Assembly: GCA_013314755.1 (NCBI GenBank)
Contig: JABUFA010000001.1
Coordinates: 149,594-213,593 of the forward strand
Reading direction: 5' to 3'
Source of the DNA: Chthonomonadia bacterium
Lineage (GTDB): Bacteria > Armatimonadota > HRBIN16
Length of the DNA stretch: 64,000 bases
Shown here: positions 47,159 through 63,355 of the stretch, piece by piece
Numbering within the stretch: the first letter of the stretch is position 1
Layout: each line of letters begins with the position of its first letter
Notes under the pieces: generated by a model
Told to the model about the DNA's origin: nothing
The model's input: only the letters and a program-made list of their open reading frames with translations
Databases searched by the model: none
Position numbers and translations under genes: made by a program

Positions 47159-47275
47159 CGGATCAGCCGCCTCATCTTTATTATGCTATACTATTCCGTT
47201 TGCATACGGCGCATGCCTGCTCTGTGGATGATGAGGCGAGACTGTAAGTAAAGGTTACATAAACTGGCGCAGGTA

Positions 47276-47304
47276 TTGACATTTTTATTTGCGTCGCATA
47301 GAAT
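47276..47304 (+). promoter_or_regulatory. Consensus sigma70 promoter for the RelE-helicase fusion gene
   Basis: TTGACA (47276-47281), 17-nt spacer, TAGAAT (47299-47304). Confidence 0.72.
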
Positions 47305-47339
47305 CGGTGCAGAAGTCTGTGCACTGAGAGGTGTAGAGG

Positions 47340-49391
47340 GTGTTAGGGCAGGTCTCATTGGCTAACACGTTTGGGGACTCGTTGAAAAAGCTCTCACCTG
47401 CCGAGCAGAAGGCGGTAAAGCTCACCGTCTTCGACTTCTTCGAGAACCCTGCCTCGCCCGGACACTCGCTCCATCAGGTAGACAAAGCCCCCTGGCCCCA
47501 CTGGTGGTCCCTGCGCGTGAATGACGACCTGCGCATTATCCTCGCACATCAGGCAGATTCTTATGTTCTGTGTTATGTGGGCCATCATGACGAGGCGTAT
47601 CGCTGGGCGCAACGTCGCCGGTTTGAGCAGGATATTACCGGAACACTGCGCGTCGTGCTGATAGAGGAGGAGATACAACACGTTATCCAGACGGTGGAAG
47701 TCAACGCTCCTCTGAGCCGTTATGATAGAGAGTATCTCATGCGCATTGGTATTCCCGCTTCGTGGGTGGATTATGTTCGGCACGCTTCCGAAGAAGACCT
47801 TATTGAACTCATTGACGAGTTCCCTGAAGAGGTCTGGGAGCGTGTGGAGGAACTGCTGAAGGGCAACGTGGTGAAGATTCCGGAGCGTATCGCCGTGGAA
47901 AACCCTCTGCACCACCCCGACAGTCGGCGTCGCTTCTGGACGCCAGCCAGTTTGGAAGAGCTTAAGCGGTCGCTGGACATGCCCTGGGAAAAGTGGCTGG
48001 TGTACCTTCATCCCCTGCAACGTGAGGCGGTGGAGGCACATTACAGCGGACCGGCACGTGTGTCGGGAGGCGCGGGCACCGGCAAGACGGTGGTGGCAGT
48101 ACATCGGACGGCGGAGCTTTCGCGTCGCTATCCCGGTGAGCGCATCCTGCTAACCACCTTCAGCCGTACGCTGGCTCAGCACCTCCGCCATCACCTGCAG
48201 CTGCTGATGGGCAGTGTGCACCCCAGAGTGACAGTGGCAAACTTGCATTCTCTGGCGCGCGGCTGGTGCTCACATCTCTATGGCGACAGATTCACCATTG
48301 CCGAGGACCAGCAGGTGGCTCAGCAACTGGAGTGGCTCCGGCTGGAACTATGCCCATCGTTTTCATCAGGCTTTGTGCGGATGGAGTGGGAGCGGGTGAT
48401 TGAGCCGTGGAACATCCGAACTTTGGAACAGTATCTCCACACTCAGCGGATAGGGCGCAAAGCCCCCCTGCGGACAGAAGATAGGCAAAAGCTGTGGCAG
48501 GTGTTTGAGGCGTTGTGGCGGTGGCTGGAGGGGAACAGCCTGTTGACGTGGAGCATGTTGTGCTATAGGCTGGTGGACGACGCGGACCTGCTACCAAAGT
48601 ATCGGTGTATCGTTGTTGATGAAGCGCAGGACTTCGGTCCGGCGGAATTGATGCTGATTCGCGCCCTGTGTCCCGAGAACCCGGACGACCTGTTCCTGTG
48701 CGCAGATGCCGAACAGCGTATCTACCGTACGGTCTCACCCTGGTCCACGCTGGGCATCCACACGCGAGGCAGGAGCACCCGTTTGCGCGTGAACTACCGA
48801 ACCACCCGCCAGATCCAGTACTATGCCGAACGCATTCTCCCTGAATACACCGAACAGGGAGACGACCTGCAGGACGAAACGCTCTCCCTGCGCCCCCTGC
48901 CACTACTGCGCGGTGACGACCCGCGAATCCGACCGGCGATTTCGGAAGACAGAGAGGCAGAACTGCTTGCCGAGTGGTTGATACTGCGTGCGCAGGAGGG
49001 CTATCAGCTCGGCGAGATGGGCGTGTTTGCCCGTACACGCAATTACCTGAAAGATTACATCGTGCCAGTGCTGGAAAAATGCGGATTGCCTGTGCACTGG
49101 TTAGACGACCACAGCCTGCCAGACTCTAACCGCGTCAACGTTGGCACGGCGCACAGGGCGAAGGGGCTGGAGTTTAAGGTGGTGGCGGTCGTAGGGGTAT
49201 GCGCCTCCCTGTTTCCCCTGCAATCCGTCCTGAGCGATATCGAAGACCCGGTGGAGCGTATAGAGTTCGAGCGGTTGGAGCGACAGCTGCTTTACGTCGC
49301 CTGCACCCGCGCCCGCGAAAAGCTGTGGGTCAGCTATTGCGGCGTGCCCAGCCCCTACCTGCCCCCAGCGCCGCAGGATAAATCGCCCTGA
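47340..49391 (+). CDS. RelE/ParE-like N-terminal domain fused to a UvrD/Rep-type superfamily 1 helicase
   Basis: N-terminus SLKKLSPAEQKAVKLTVFDFFENPASPGHSLHQVDKAPWPHWWSLRVNDDLRIILAHQADSYVLCYVGHHDEAYRWAQRR. Helicase motifs GGAGTGKTVV, VDEAQDFG, RVNYRTTRQI, NVGTAHRAKGLEFKVVAVVGV, LLYVACTRAREKLWV. Confidence 0.88.
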   Translation: MLGQVSLANTFGDSLKKLSPAEQKAVKLTVFDFFENPASPGHSLHQVDKAPWPHWWSLRVNDDLRIILAHQADSYVLCYVGHHDEAYRWAQRRRFEQDITGTLRVVLIEEEIQHVIQTVEVNAPLSRYDREYLMRIGIPASWVDYVRHASEEDLIELIDEFPEEVWERVEELLKGNVVKIPERIAVENPLHHPDSRRRFWTPASLEELKRSLDMPWEKWLVYLHPLQREAVEAHYSGPARVSGGAGTGKTVVAVHRTAELSRRYPGERILLTTFSRTLAQHLRHHLQLLMGSVHPRVTVANLHSLARGWCSHLYGDRFTIAEDQQVAQQLEWLRLELCPSFSSGFVRMEWERVIEPWNIRTLEQYLHTQRIGRKAPLRTEDRQKLWQVFEALWRWLEGNSLLTWSMLCYRLVDDADLLPKYRCIVVDEAQDFGPAELMLIRALCPENPDDLFLCADAEQRIYRTVSPWSTLGIHTRGRSTRLRVNYRTTRQIQYYAERILPEYTEQGDDLQDETLSLRPLPLLRGDDPRIRPAISEDREAELLAEWLILRAQEGYQLGEMGVFARTRNYLKDYIVPVLEKCGLPVHWLDDHSLPDSNRVNVGTAHRAKGLEFKVVAVVGVCASLFPLQSVLSDIEDPVERIEFERLERQLLYVACTRAREKLWVSYCGVPSPYLPPAPQDKSP

Positions 49392-49417
49392 GAGAAGAAC
49401 TCAAAACACCGAAAGCG

Positions 49418-57498: not shown

Positions 57499-58080
57499 TC
57501 AATCGCACATTAAATCGCATATCTGCAGGAACGCTTCCACCACGCGGGGGTCAAACTGCGTGCCCGCACAGCGCAGGAGTTCGGCTTTCGCCTCTTCAAT
57601 GCTCAGAGGCTCTTTCCACGGTGCGCCGTGAGTAAGAATATCGTATACCTCCGCGACGGCGATAATGCGGGCGCCGAGCGGTATCTGCTCCCCTGCCAGT
57701 CCATCGGGATAGCCGGTACCATCCCAGCGTTCGTGGTGGTGCTTGATGAGCGGGAGGGTTGGTTTCAACGCCTGCACTGTGCCCAGAATCTCCAGTGCGA
57801 GCGTCGCATGCTGGCGCATAATCTTTATCTCTTCGTCGGTCAAACTGCCCAGCTTGCCCAGAATGCTGTCGGATATCGCCACCTTGCCGATATCATGCAG
57901 TTCCGCCGCACGACGCAGCACCAGCAGTTCCTCGTCGCTCATGCCCAGCTTTTCGCCGGTCGCTACAGCCAGAACCGCCACCCGCGCACTGTGACGGTCT
58001 GCGCCCTTCTCGCGCATCGCCGCCACGCGTACCAGCGCCCTGACGGTATCGTTCACAGCCCGATCGACGGCATCATGCAT
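57499..58080 (-). CDS. HD-GYP-type phosphohydrolase
   Basis: RRAAELHDIGKVAISDSILGKLGSLTDEEIKIMRQHATLALEIL, IKHHHERWDGTGYPDGLAGEQIPLGARIIAVAEVYDILT. Confidence 0.95.
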   Translation of the reverse strand: MHDAVDRAVNDTVRALVRVAAMREKGADRHSARVAVLAVATGEKLGMSDEELLVLRRAAELHDIGKVAISDSILGKLGSLTDEEIKIMRQHATLALEILGTVQALKPTLPLIKHHHERWDGTGYPDGLAGEQIPLGARIIAVAEVYDILTHGAPWKEPLSIEEAKAELLRCAGTQFDPRVVEAFLQICDLMCD

Positions 58081-59515
58081 CGCTTGCCCCTCCGCTCAGA
58101 CATTGAGTGACCGCGCGCGCCACCGCCTGCACCAGCGCATCGGTCTCGCCCGGCAGTAAGGTGCGTGGGTCAAGAACCACCTCATTGCGTTCGATTCGCG
58201 CAAATACAGCAGGCTCCTGCCAGCGCAGGGCACGCGCCATCTGCGAAGCGTCCACCTGCGAACTCCCCAAACAGACCAGCACGGTCCGTAACTGCTGACC
58301 GGGCAGACTTCCACCCCCCACCTCGGACACGCCTTCGCGCAGGGATACCGTGACACTCCCAGCAGGGACCGCCCTCTGCAATCTCCCTTTTATCTGCTGT
58401 GCTCGCTTTCTGATTTCGCCCTCCGACATCGCCAGCGCACGCAGGGTGGGGATCTCGCGCAGCGCCATCTCCGGGTTCAGGTAGAGGCGCAGGGTGGCTT
58501 CCAACGCGCTCAGTGTCAACTTGTCCACCCGAAGCGCACGGTGCAGGGGATGTTTGCGGATGCGCTGAACTATCTCCCTGCGCCCCAGGATGATGCCCGC
58601 CTGCGGACCGCCCAGCAGTTTATCTCCGCTGCAGGTAACCACATCGCTGCCCGCCTGCACACTCTCCTGCAGGGTCGGCTCATGCTCCAGCCCGAACTGC
58701 TCGGTGTTGACCAGACAGCCGCTGCCCACGTCGTCCAGCATATGCAGCCCGTGCCGATGCGCTAAGGATGCCAGCTCGCCGGTGGATACCTCTTCCGTAA
58801 ACCCCACAATGCGGAAGTTGCTGGGATGGCAGCGCAGGATAAGCGCGGTTTCGGAAGTTATTGCCCGTTCGTAATCGGAGAGACGGGTACGATTGGTTGT
58901 GCCGACCTCCACCAGCCTCGCACCGCTCTGGGCGATGATGTCGGGCATTCGAAACGCACCGCCAATCTCCACCAGCTGCCCCCGCGAGATAATCACCTCC
59001 CTGCCCTGCGCCAACACGGTAATCGCCAGTAGAACCGCCCCTGCGTTGTTGTTCACCACGGTGGCATCTTCCGCACCGGTCAGCCGGCACAGCAGGTCGC
59101 GCACATGCTCGATGCGGTCGCCGCGCTCGCCGGTGTCGCGGTCAATCTCCAGCATGGAGTGCCCCATCGCCACCTCTGCGACCGCCTGCCTCGCTGGTTC
59201 GGCAAGCACCGCCCGTCCCAGCCCTGTGTGCAGAACCACCCCGGTGGCGTTAATCGCCCGGCGCAGGGAAAGCGTGCTCCAGCGTTCCACCTCCCGCAGT
59301 ACCGCCCCGACCACCGAAGATAGGTCGGTAGGAAGTGTCTCTCCGCTCTTCAATCGCCGGCGTATCTCTTCCAGCACCTCGCGCGCGCAATCCACCACCA
59401 GGTCACGCCCATGTTCTGCTACCGCCTGTTGTATCCGCTCGTCCTGCAGGAGGCGCGACACGGCGGGCAAACCACGCAACGGGGAGGCGTCGTTGGCGGT
59501 TTCTCGCGTGCTCAT
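58073..59515 (-). CDS. selA: L-seryl-tRNA(Sec) selenium transferase
   Basis: INATGVVLHTGLGRAVLAEPA, VVNNNAGAVLLAI, VGTTNRTRLSDYERAI, DVVTCSGDKLLGGPQAGIILGRREIV. ATG at 59515 preferred. Confidence 0.96.
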   Translation of the reverse strand: MSTRETANDASPLRGLPAVSRLLQDERIQQAVAEHGRDLVVDCAREVLEEIRRRLKSGETLPTDLSSVVGAVLREVERWSTLSLRRAINATGVVLHTGLGRAVLAEPARQAVAEVAMGHSMLEIDRDTGERGDRIEHVRDLLCRLTGAEDATVVNNNAGAVLLAITVLAQGREVIISRGQLVEIGGAFRMPDIIAQSGARLVEVGTTNRTRLSDYERAITSETALILRCHPSNFRIVGFTEEVSTGELASLAHRHGLHMLDDVGSGCLVNTEQFGLEHEPTLQESVQAGSDVVTCSGDKLLGGPQAGIILGRREIVQRIRKHPLHRALRVDKLTLSALEATLRLYLNPEMALREIPTLRALAMSEGEIRKRAQQIKGRLQRAVPAGSVTVSLREGVSEVGGGSLPGQQLRTVLVCLGSSQVDASQMARALRWQEPAVFARIERNEVVLDPRTLLPGETDALVQAVARAVTQCLSGGASDA

Positions 59516-59522
59516 ACCCTGT

Positions 59523-61262
59523 CTACTCGCCGGGAGGAAACTCCAGCTGCGCCCACCATTTCGGCTCGACGTCCGGGAAGATGTTGTCGCGCTCCTCCGC
59601 CTCGCCCAGTGCGCCCCACTCTTCGGGAGAAGGCTTCTCGCCGCGTGCAACCCGCTCCAGCAGATTCACCAGCATCTGAAAACGGTCGGCGTGCCACTGC
59701 GCGCGCAGTTCCGCGTAATCCCGCGCCGACCATGTGCTGATGAGAAACTGCCAGTCGGAGGATTGCAGAAGCAGGAGCTCGCGGGCAATCTGCTTCAAGA
59801 TGGTCTGCACCTCCGGGTGGTCGCCATACTGGCGTGCCAGGCGCACCATCTCACGCTCGGCGGGATAGATGCGCCTCCATGTCCATTCGGTCCACTCGTT
59901 CAGCCACACCCAGTGGTACCCACCTTCGCCCCATGAGCCTTCGGGCAGCTGAACCACCGTCTGCGGTGGATGCTGGTGCAGATACTTCCCGCAGGTGGTC
60001 GGATGGATTTCGGGATGCGCCTCCATGCCCCGACGCACCCAGTACAGCCACTCGGGACCCTCGAACCACCAGTGACCGTACAGCTCGGTATCGTACATGG
60101 CAGTGATGATGCCGTTTTGACCGGTGGACTGCACGTGCTCGTTGAGTACCTGGTGCGCCAGGTCCACGAAGTGTTTGGCGTGTTCCTGGATGCGCTCGAA
60201 CGCCTTCGCCAGTTCGTAAGGCTGTTTCTTACCCAGGTCGTCCTTCGGGCGGGAGATGCGCCAGTATCGCAAGCCGCCGGGCGGCAGCTTCTTGTGAAAC
60301 TCCAGATAGTACTCGTCGCCGGGGTAGCCGGAGTCCGCGCTCCATACCTGCACGCCGGTGCGCGGGTCGCGCGTGAAAACGGCAATAGGCGGCTTGGGCT
60401 CGCCAGAGGAGTTGACCAGATACACACAGTACGGCGATTTCTCCGCCTCTTCCGGGCGATACTGTACGCTGAACTGCTCCCACAGTTCGCGTAGAGGCTT
60501 GAACCGCTCGGCGTACACGCCGATTGCCTCGCCGCCGCGAAGCAGGTGCGAATCGATAAAGAAGTACTCGATGCCGTTCTCGGCGAGAATCTCCTCCACT
60601 CCCTTGCGCAGCCACGGCTCAGTGGGCTTGCCTTCGAAATCCACCGGGTAGTTCCAGCGATAGCGAGGGCGGTAGGCACACTCGGGGAGCCAGAAACCGC
60701 GCGGCGACCTGCCGAACAGCCGTTTATAGGTCTGCACACCCTGTTTCACCTGCGCCTGCACCGCCTCATCGGTCCCTAGCAGGGGCAGGTAGCCGTGTGT
60801 CGCAGCGCTGGTCAGAATCTCAACATGTCCGGCATCCTGCAGGTCGCGAAACGCCCCGATGATGTCCGAACGATAGCGCTCGCGGAAGTCGCTCAGTGTC
60901 CTGCTGAAGAACCGGTGCCAGTAGTCCGCCAGCGCCGCCATACCTATCTGTTTCTCCTGCAGGAACTGCTTGCGGTTCACCTCCGCCGCGGCGATTTTGT
61001 CCTTCAGCCACGCCTCAAACTCCGCCGCGAAGGCAGGATGCGCCAGCTGTTCCGCCAGCACCGGAGTGATACCAATCGTGAACTGCGGCGAGATGCCGTC
61101 CTTAATCAAACGATGACAGGTGTTCAGCAGGGGGATATAGGTCTCGGCAGCGCTTTCCGAAAGCCAGTCCATGCCGTGCGGACTGCGCCCGTGCGCCAGC
61201 ACGTAAGGGATATGCGAGTGTAACACAAAGGCAAAATAGCCCAGCGGTTTTGCGTTTTCCAA
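59523..61262 (-). CDS. Glycoside hydrolase family 57 protein, 1,4-alpha-glucan branching enzyme-like
   Basis: FAFVLHSHIPYVLAHGRSPHGMDWLSESAAETYIPLL; GFWLPECAYRPRY; AMYDTELYGHWWFEGPEWL. Confidence 0.93.
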   Translation of the reverse strand: MENAKPLGYFAFVLHSHIPYVLAHGRSPHGMDWLSESAAETYIPLLNTCHRLIKDGISPQFTIGITPVLAEQLAHPAFAAEFEAWLKDKIAAAEVNRKQFLQEKQIGMAALADYWHRFFSRTLSDFRERYRSDIIGAFRDLQDAGHVEILTSAATHGYLPLLGTDEAVQAQVKQGVQTYKRLFGRSPRGFWLPECAYRPRYRWNYPVDFEGKPTEPWLRKGVEEILAENGIEYFFIDSHLLRGGEAIGVYAERFKPLRELWEQFSVQYRPEEAEKSPYCVYLVNSSGEPKPPIAVFTRDPRTGVQVWSADSGYPGDEYYLEFHKKLPPGGLRYWRISRPKDDLGKKQPYELAKAFERIQEHAKHFVDLAHQVLNEHVQSTGQNGIITAMYDTELYGHWWFEGPEWLYWVRRGMEAHPEIHPTTCGKYLHQHPPQTVVQLPEGSWGEGGYHWVWLNEWTEWTWRRIYPAEREMVRLARQYGDHPEVQTILKQIARELLLLQSSDWQFLISTWSARDYAELRAQWHADRFQMLVNLLERVARGEKPSPEEWGALGEAEERDNIFPDVEPKWWAQLEFPPGE

Positions 61263-61435
61263 GTCTTAAAGCCTCCTTGCACATAGCCCACGCCTGCTGT
61301 AAGCATAGCACGATGCAACGCTGAATGTCAATCACACCCAAAAGTGCTCTCTCAGAAGACAAACCGCTACCTCGCACGCGATGCCCACCAGGCGGTATAC
61401 TGTTAGCGAGAACATCATGCGGAAGCAGGGTACGG

Positions 61436-63355
61436 ATGGATACGCCAGTCTCTCAGAAGCACGTGATTATCGGTACGGCAGGACATGTGGACCACGGCAA
61501 GTCCACGCTGATTACCGCCCTCACCGGCATCAACCCCGACCGCCTGAAGGAAGAGCAGGAGCGCGGCATGACGATAGACCTGGGCTTTGCGTCGCTGAGC
61601 CTGCCGAGCGGACAGGTGGTCGGTATTGTGGATGTGCCCGGACACGAGCGGTTTCTCAAAAACATGCTGGCGGGGGCAGGCGGCGTGGACGTGGTGTTGT
61701 TGGTGATTGCAGCGGACGAGGGCATCATGCCGCAGACGCGCGAGCATCTGGACATCCTGCGCCTGCTGGACGTGAAGGCGGGCGTGGTGGCGCTGACCAA
61801 GTGCGACCTGGTAGACGCGGAATGGCTTCAGCTGGTGACCGACGAGGTGAGGCAGTTCCTGCAGGACACTCCGCTCAGCGATTCGCCTATTATTCCGGTC
61901 TCTGCGGTAACGGGGCAGGGACTGGATGATTTGCGAACTGCTCTTCAGCGGGCGGTGGAGCGCGTGCCCTCGCGGGAGGTCAATGCGCCGTTCCGCCTGC
62001 CGATTGACCGGGTGTTCACGCTGGCGGGGGCGGGCACGGTGGTGACCGGTACGCTGGTCAGCGGCAGGGTGCGCGTGGGGGATGCGGTGGAGATTCTGCC
62101 GCCGGGTCTGCAATCCCGGGCGCGACAGATACAGGTGCACGGGCGCAGGGTGGAAGAGGCGGTAGCGGGCAGTCGGGTCGCCATCAACCTGCCGGGCGTT
62201 GAAAAATCGCAGGTAGAACGCGGGATGGTGTGCACGCCGCCCGGGCTTTTCCGCCCGACGCAGGCTTTTGACGCGCAGGTTACCCTGCTTCCCGACGCGG
62301 CGAAAGGGCTGACACAGCGGGCGCGAATACGAGTGTATCTGGGCACGGCAGAGGTGATTGGACGATTGTCCCTGCTGGACAGCGAGCGACTGGACGCCGG
62401 CTCACAGGGGATGGTGCAGATAAGGCTGGAGAAGCCGCTGGTCGCGGCACGAGGCGACCGCTTCGTCATTCGTACCTATTCGCCCATGTTCACCATCGGC
62501 GGGGGCATCGTGCTGGAGCCTCACGCACCGCGCCACCGGCGATTTGACCCTGCGGTGCTAGAACGCCTGCACTCATTGCTGAAGGGTGACCCGGCGCAAA
62601 AGGTGCTGGCGATACTGGCGCAGTCCCCTGCCGGTCTGGACGAAGCGGAGCTTGCCCGTCGCGCCGAGACCGCTTCTCACCATCTTGCCACCTTGCTTCA
62701 GCAGCTGGAGCGAGAAGGGCGTGCTGTGCGCGTGGGCGATGTATGGTTTGCGCGCACTGTACTGCAGGACCTGCAGGAGCGAACAAAGCAGACTCTTCAA
62801 CGTTACCATCAACAGAACCCCCTGCGTGCGGGAATGCCCCGCGAGGAACTGCGCTCCACCGTAGCGAAGGGGCTGTCGCCGCGCCTGTTTGAGGCGTTGC
62901 TGACACGCTGGCAGGAGGAAGGTGCGATTGCCCTGCAGGGGGCGATCGTGCGGCTGGCGGATTTTACCATTCGCCTCAACGAGCGTCAACAGCGTCTGGC
63001 GGAGCGCGTCGCACAGGCGATTCGCGAGGGGAAGGCAACCCCGCCACCGGTTTCCATCATCGCCCAGCAGGTAGGTGCGCCGCCCGATGCGGTGAGAGCA
63101 ATGATACAGGTGCTGGTGGAGATGGGAGAACTGGTGCGGCTGGAGGAGGACCTGTTCTTCCACCGGGAGGTGCTGGAGGAGCTGGCGGAGCTGGTGCGCC
63201 GGGCGATTCGGGAAAAGGGTTCGCTGAGCGTTGGAGAGTTTCGCGACCTTACCGGCTCCAGCCGCAAGTTTGCAGTGCCCCTGTTAGAGTATTTTGACAG
63301 CATCCACCTGACGCGCAGGGTAGGGGATGTGCGCGTGCTGGCAGAAGGGGGCTAA
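61436..63355 (+). CDS. selB: Selenocysteine-specific translation elongation factor
   Basis: [69 protein letters not shown]-terminal winged-helix repeats ending [34 protein letters not shown]. Confidence 0.97.

Follow-up and report, generated by a model that had tools for sequence, protein, structure and literature searches.

The fusion gene described here lies on the forward strand of the window, by which we mean the whole 64,000-nucleotide stretch of a Chthonomonadia bacterium genome that was analysed. It is an intact open reading frame of 683 amino acids with a GTG start codon and full-length homologues, and it joins an N-terminal RelE-like domain to a UvrD-type helicase. The features of the locus are as follows.

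47159-49417, no strand: segment present in the window genome and absent from three genomes of the same genus (flanking-orthologue comparison)
47276-47304, plus strand: promoter-like TTGACA-17-TAGAAT, about 36 nt upstream of the start codon; one found against 0.6 expected by chance
47340-49391, plus strand: RelE-like/UvrD helicase fusion gene (ArmD-like)
47340-47669, plus strand: RelE/YoeB-fold domain, residues 1-110 (Foldseek and profile against the PDB; weak Pfam match)
47472-47474, plus strand: H45, equivalent of the YoeB general base E46; H in 38, E in 34 and K in 1 of 73 homologues
47532-47534, plus strand: R65, equivalent of YoeB R65, in 73 of 73 homologues
47586-47588, plus strand: H83, equivalent of the YoeB general acid H83, in the motif HHDEAYRWA, in 73 of 73 homologues
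47709-47864, plus strand: conserved helical connector, residues 124-175 (conservation and AlphaFold2 model)
48000-49343, plus strand: SF1A UvrD-type helicase core, residues 221-668 (Pfam UvrD-helicase, 3.8e-19; UvrD_C, 2.2e-20; Foldseek; motifs)

The left neighbour of the fusion gene belongs to the aminoglycoside acetyltransferase family, and the right neighbour encodes 756 amino acids without a Pfam match. No antitoxin-like open reading frame lies on either side of the gene, and no defence genes occur among the flanking genes examined. Further along the window, the selenocysteine-insertion genes selA/selB lie at 58073-59650 (minus strand) and 61325-63355 (plus strand); ARAGORN found no tRNA-Sec in the window.

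As a single sequence, the protein matches the Pfam ParE_toxin family below the cut-off (E=0.011 for the full protein; E=0.0016 when the domain is searched alone, where it scores 19.4 bits and the cut-off is 23). A single-sequence PDB search with the N-domain returned chance glycosidase matches only, and a profile was required; with a profile of 23 domain sequences, RelE-superfamily toxins made up most of the 11 PDB matches. The full-length AlphaFold2 model, built from 73 sequences, reaches a pLDDT of 91.5, and its first 91 residues follow the order β-α-α-β-β-β-β-α, followed by two short strands. The isolated domain of 117 amino acids, modelled from the single sequence, has a pLDDT of 81. When this model was compared with the PDB by Foldseek, the best folds were nearly all RelE/YoeB/YafQ-type toxins, with probabilities of about 1.0, TM-scores mostly between 0.5 and 0.71 and modest E-values (best 0.005). 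The viral Foldseek library added only weak ParE-like phage proteins. The predicted structure confirms a RelE/YoeB fold for the N-domain.

In YoeB, E46 is the general base, R65 the essential arginine and H83 the general acid (PMC12620021, PMC2807027). The profile alignment to YoeB (2a6q) places these residues on window positions 45, 65 and 83. Across the 73 homologues of the conservation alignment, which come from 14 named phyla, D84, A86, Y87 and W89 are also invariant or nearly so. This residue pattern is as predicted for a retained active site, from which we infer ribonuclease activity. Compared with the copy in a related genome of the same genus (G184), the window protein is better conserved in the RelE-like domain than in the helicase (identity 0.60 versus 0.54; dN 0.32 versus 0.44). 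Between G184 and a further genome, G183, dN/dS is 0.33 in the RelE-like part and 0.11 in the helicase, based on few changes. The domain is therefore maintained rather than decaying. The window protein shares its fold and catalytic positions with the type II toxins of the YoeB/RelE superfamily; it differs from them in being fused to a helicase, in lacking an adjacent antitoxin gene and in carrying an extra C-terminal motif, HDxAYxWA. The residue at position 45 follows genomic context: the ARMADA, BrxL and TOTE-linked rows described below have E, and almost all rows that are restriction-linked or lone have H.

The helicase motifs are complete, comprising GGAGTGKT (243), DEAQD (427), ADAEQRIY (455), HRAKGLEF (605) and ACTRA (654), and the UvrD Pfam scores lie far above the cut-off. 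Among the 50 best Foldseek matches of the full-length model only helicases are found, headed by UvrD/PcrA/Rep and including HelD. The housekeeping equivalog models fall well short of their cut-offs (PcrA 86 versus 911 bits, UvrD 69 versus 1144), and among defence models the helicase part scores best with NERD+UvrD (PADLOC C3a187) and GajB of Gabija. The window locus departs from both in that no GajA/OLD nuclease lies among the flanking genes examined and in that its N-domain is RelE-like, rather than NERD or none.

These results bear out an earlier sequence-only reading of the locus, which had proposed a RelE/UvrD fusion at 47340-49391 on the plus strand, a RelE-family fold at its N-terminus, all major SF1A motifs and no neighbouring antitoxin gene. 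That reading had also called for an inspection of the catalytic residues, which revealed the YoeB-type set H45/R65/H83. The fold is RelE-like and the catalytic set is kept, so two of the outcomes that would have spoken against the reading, a different fold and missing RNase residues, were not found. The linker of about 150 amino acids that it described does exist as an intervening region, although part of it is a conserved segment. Here G137 is found in 72 of 73 homologues, and P162 and G175 in 67 of 73 each; the AlphaFold2 model shows helices across this connector, and a Pfam search with it matched no family. Because no antitoxin gene is adjacent, we propose, as a guess, that the connector is a candidate for internal restraint or coupling; since it matches no known family, a cryptic internal inhibitor is conceivable.

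The fusion architecture is already published as ArmD and is thus not a new kind of fusion; the window gene belongs to the ArmD family and stands by itself. In the available sections of the ARMADA paper (PMC12458937), ArmD of the type II anti-phage system combines an N-terminal RelE-like domain with a GajB-like UvrD helicase, and all four ARMADA genes are required for defence in E. coli. In the ArmD Walker A mutant K266A activity is lost, and D454N is partly inactive. The ArmD mutations described under anti-phage activity concern the helicase part only; the available sections give the function of the RelE-like domain as a prediction. We found an E. coli plasmid locus with the gene order SNF2-methyltransferase-YprA-like that encodes a homologue of 704 amino acids, in which K and D stand exactly at positions 266 and 454, where the published ArmD was mutated. 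Across its entire length the window protein shares 34% identity with this E. coli ArmD, with the same domain order and the same predicted catalytic positions; the base position is E48 in E. coli ArmD and H45 in the window protein. ArmD is encoded directly after ArmA-ArmB-ArmC, whereas the window gene stands alone with its own promoter-like sequence.

We propose that the lone ArmD-family gene encodes a module passed between anti-invader systems, a motor-tethered YoeB-type ribonuclease acting on invader transcripts, and consider this an even call. The SF1A motor would load on single-stranded or damaged invader DNA and translocate along it, presumably in the 3'-5' direction. The tethered nuclease, with H/E45 as putative base, R65, and H83 as putative acid, would then cut RNA near the invader DNA, its targets being transcripts of the invader that are still nascent or bound to ribosomes. 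What holds the nuclease in check may be its tether and the connector instead of a free antitoxin, with the helicase possibly gating it. Alternatively, the RelE-like fold could be a non-catalytic dock through which the helicase reaches RNA, ribosomes or RNA polymerase, leaving the protein solely a DNA translocase. ParE members of the superfamily do lack the RNase residues (PMC11980606), position 45 accepts H, E and once K, and HelD, a remodeller of RNA polymerase from SF1, is among the fold matches of the helicase part; the non-abortive protection reported in the accessible parts of the ARMADA paper (PMC12458937) would also suit a dock. We nevertheless regard this as unlikely, as none of the 73 sequences, drawn from 14 named phyla, departs from R65 or H83, and 72 of them have H or E at position 45, a pattern that fits a base-acid pair and is unneeded for a docking surface.

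Support for a motor-tethered ribonuclease with a defence role comes in part from the family as a whole. The RelE-UvrD architecture recurs in more than 100 homologues, and the contexts of 120 full-length homologues were compared. ARMADA-type genes accompany 30 of them, with the fusion gene mostly overlapping or abutting ArmC. A BPTD_3080-family restriction endonuclease and/or a type III methyltransferase neighbours 46 of the 120; in these operons the fusion gene lies 3' of the methyltransferase, the spacing ranging from -8 to several thousand bases. In three (Thermaceae) the neighbours are BrxL, tubulin-like and vWA genes, and in one DUF4011. No reference context was assigned to 40 of the 120, an upper bound for lone genes, since this set includes loci on short contigs as well as operons too divergent for the reference set to recognise. 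Some homologues lie beside CRISPR genes, and family members occur on viral contigs; phage records yielded no full-length match and two weak helicase matches. Homologues of the fusion gene do sit in defence loci, namely in ARMADA, type III-like restriction-modification and CRISPR neighbourhoods. Type III-like restriction operons, loci with BrxL/tubulin-like genes and loci with parts of TOTE conflict systems are new settings for the family. Our literature search found no paper on its restriction or TOTE-like associations, though such work may exist.

Operons of BPTD_3080 and type III methyltransferase with a downstream RelE-UvrD accessory gene are found in L025:2037-10097, L029, L031, L033, L042, L046 and many of L054-L092. 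The same layout occurs on the viral contigs L133-L151, and overall it is distributed over plasmids, chromosomes and IMG/VR contigs; no description of this accessory was found in the literature searched. In Thermus/Meiothermus (L026:2027-17149, L024 and L053), genes for vWA, tubulin-like, unknown, BrxL and RelE-UvrD proteins stand in one row. The row of L026 also encodes a protein of 1716 amino acids matching DEDDh, DinG and RecQ/DpdF-like models.

In the family tree, the window protein clusters with two copies from the same genus and seven other Armatimonadota rows (support 93). None of the rows in this clade has ARMADA or restriction genes adjacent, and the clade adjoins Thermaceae rows seated in ARMADA or BrxL loci. 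In five genomes within or beside the clade, a TPR-DUF7017-S1/CSD-TOTE-2 gene adjoins the fusion gene, together with a HEAT-repeat gene in four of the five. These loci of Armatimonadota (family f17; PADLOC PDC-M16B), in which the two genes are divergent to the RelE-UvrD gene, are L043:4961-10874, L045:8633-14439, L050:11951-16912, L052:6370-10784 and L228:3-2428; in the partial L228 the HEAT-repeat gene was not seen. A strong DUF7017 match occurs in seven genomes of the phylum, five of which also belong to the 18 genomes that carry the fusion (p ~1e-5, without correction for kinship). The window fusion itself has no adjacent TPR-S1/CSD gene, and S1CSD-TOTE-2 has no match in the window genome or in the genus. 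The HEAT/TPR-S1 loci possibly represent a TOTE-like system. The TOTE naming follows the ARMADA paper and the titles of PDB, Pfam and PADLOC entries.

At the window site, 2,259 bp separate the two neighbouring genes, with the fusion gene as the sole gene inside. In three relatives of the same genus (G179, G184 and G186), the orthologues of both neighbours are directly adjacent, with about 115-120 bp between them. The fusion gene is present in three of ten genomes of the genus, at differing sites; the copies in G183 and G184 are 56-57% identical to the window gene and are located elsewhere. No convincing terminal repeats or target-site duplication flank the inserted gene, the one 19-nt pair being 74% identical and probably due to chance. 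From this comparison, the window copy is best read as a single-gene gain; loss in the three relatives is the less parsimonious account, given that the carriers have the gene at different sites. Patchy distribution at different sites is typical of accessory genes. A lone copy with its own promoter-like sequence, at a site empty in three genomes of the same genus, is a new setting for the family.

The lone Armatimonadota copies might instead be domesticated helicases of repair or of transcription-replication conflicts, with no role in defence. The lack of defence genes around the window gene, its nearly ordinary G+C, its own promoter-like sequence and the grouping of the lone copies in one clade would fit such helicases. 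Against this stand the patchy presence in the genus with differing loci and an empty site in three relatives, the sister rows in ARMADA or BrxL loci, the TOTE-linked part of the clade and the scores far under the housekeeping UvrD/PcrA/Rep models (86 versus 911 bits). We judge domestication to be as doubtful as the docking alternative.

The motor-tethered ribonuclease is favoured by the YoeB fold with its catalytic positions, the retention of the RelE-like domain in close relatives, full-length homology to ArmD, the K266/D454 correspondence in E. coli, the defence contexts, the TOTE-linked clade-mates, the patchy presence and the viral contigs. Counting against it are the absence of defence neighbours around the window copy, the loss of S57/R59 in some relatives of the window clade (L038-L041) and K at position 45 in one homologue. 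The earlier proposal of a defence effector stands in part: the homologue ArmD is required for phage defence in the available text (PMC12458937), while the genes examined around the window gene include none for defence. A toxin acting abortively, in which infection leads the helicase to free the RelE domain and cellular mRNA is cleaved, killing or arresting the host, appears improbable. RelE/YoeB toxins do cleave mRNA at the ribosome (PMC2807027). The fold matches include Cami1, solved on the 70S ribosome (8phb, 8phj), in which a RelE-like domain is likewise joined to a second domain; the partner in the window protein is a DNA helicase and not a CARF sensor. We take Cami1 to be a CRISPR-linked, sensor-fused RelE effector with a CARF cyclic-nucleotide sensor. 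ARMADA, however, the sole tested system with such a protein, is described in the accessible sections as protecting directly and non-abortively, without viability loss or metabolic shutdown (PMC12458937). A broad mRNA interferase is therefore unlikely, and a simple self-toxicity effector is disfavoured.

Were the motor-tethered ribonuclease correct, DNA sensing and RNA cutting would be coupled in one polypeptide without an antitoxin, one module would be common to four or more types of defence locus, and the lone copy would offer a small single-gene handle on the role of the ArmD RelE-like domain. Otherwise, the window gene amounts to an orphaned member of a family already in the literature. More tentatively, ArmD-type proteins may be exchangeable defence effectors outside ARMADA, serving as an accessory of BPTD_3080 restriction, as a TOTE-like HEAT/TPR-S1 effector in Armatimonadota and as single-gene defence in the window, with a DNA motor aiming a YoeB-type RNase at transcripts of foreign DNA; we consider this possible, though less probable than the narrower proposal.

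The window genome (G000) carries ArmA-, ArmB- and ArmC-like genes without ArmD on contig 5 (L237:475-13923), and G183 has ArmB- and ArmC-like genes, also without ArmD. Their ArmC proteins belong to a clade of 16 rows, beside none of which ArmD was found; these loci therefore look like ARMADA type I and are probably independent of the lone gene. It is thus highly improbable that the lone gene supplies in trans the ArmD that the locus in its own genome lacks. Such a role is suggested by these ArmD-less loci and by the higher frequency of ArmC among carriers of unlinked fusions (5 of 16, against 30 of 289 genomes overall; p=0.017, without correction for kinship). It is weakened by the ArmC tree, by members of the ArmC clade in which no fusion gene reached the threshold applied (G245, G205 and G132) and by G184, which carries the fusion yet no ARMADA. 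The gene preceding the ARMADA-like locus on contig 5 reads like a putative tyrosine recombinase.
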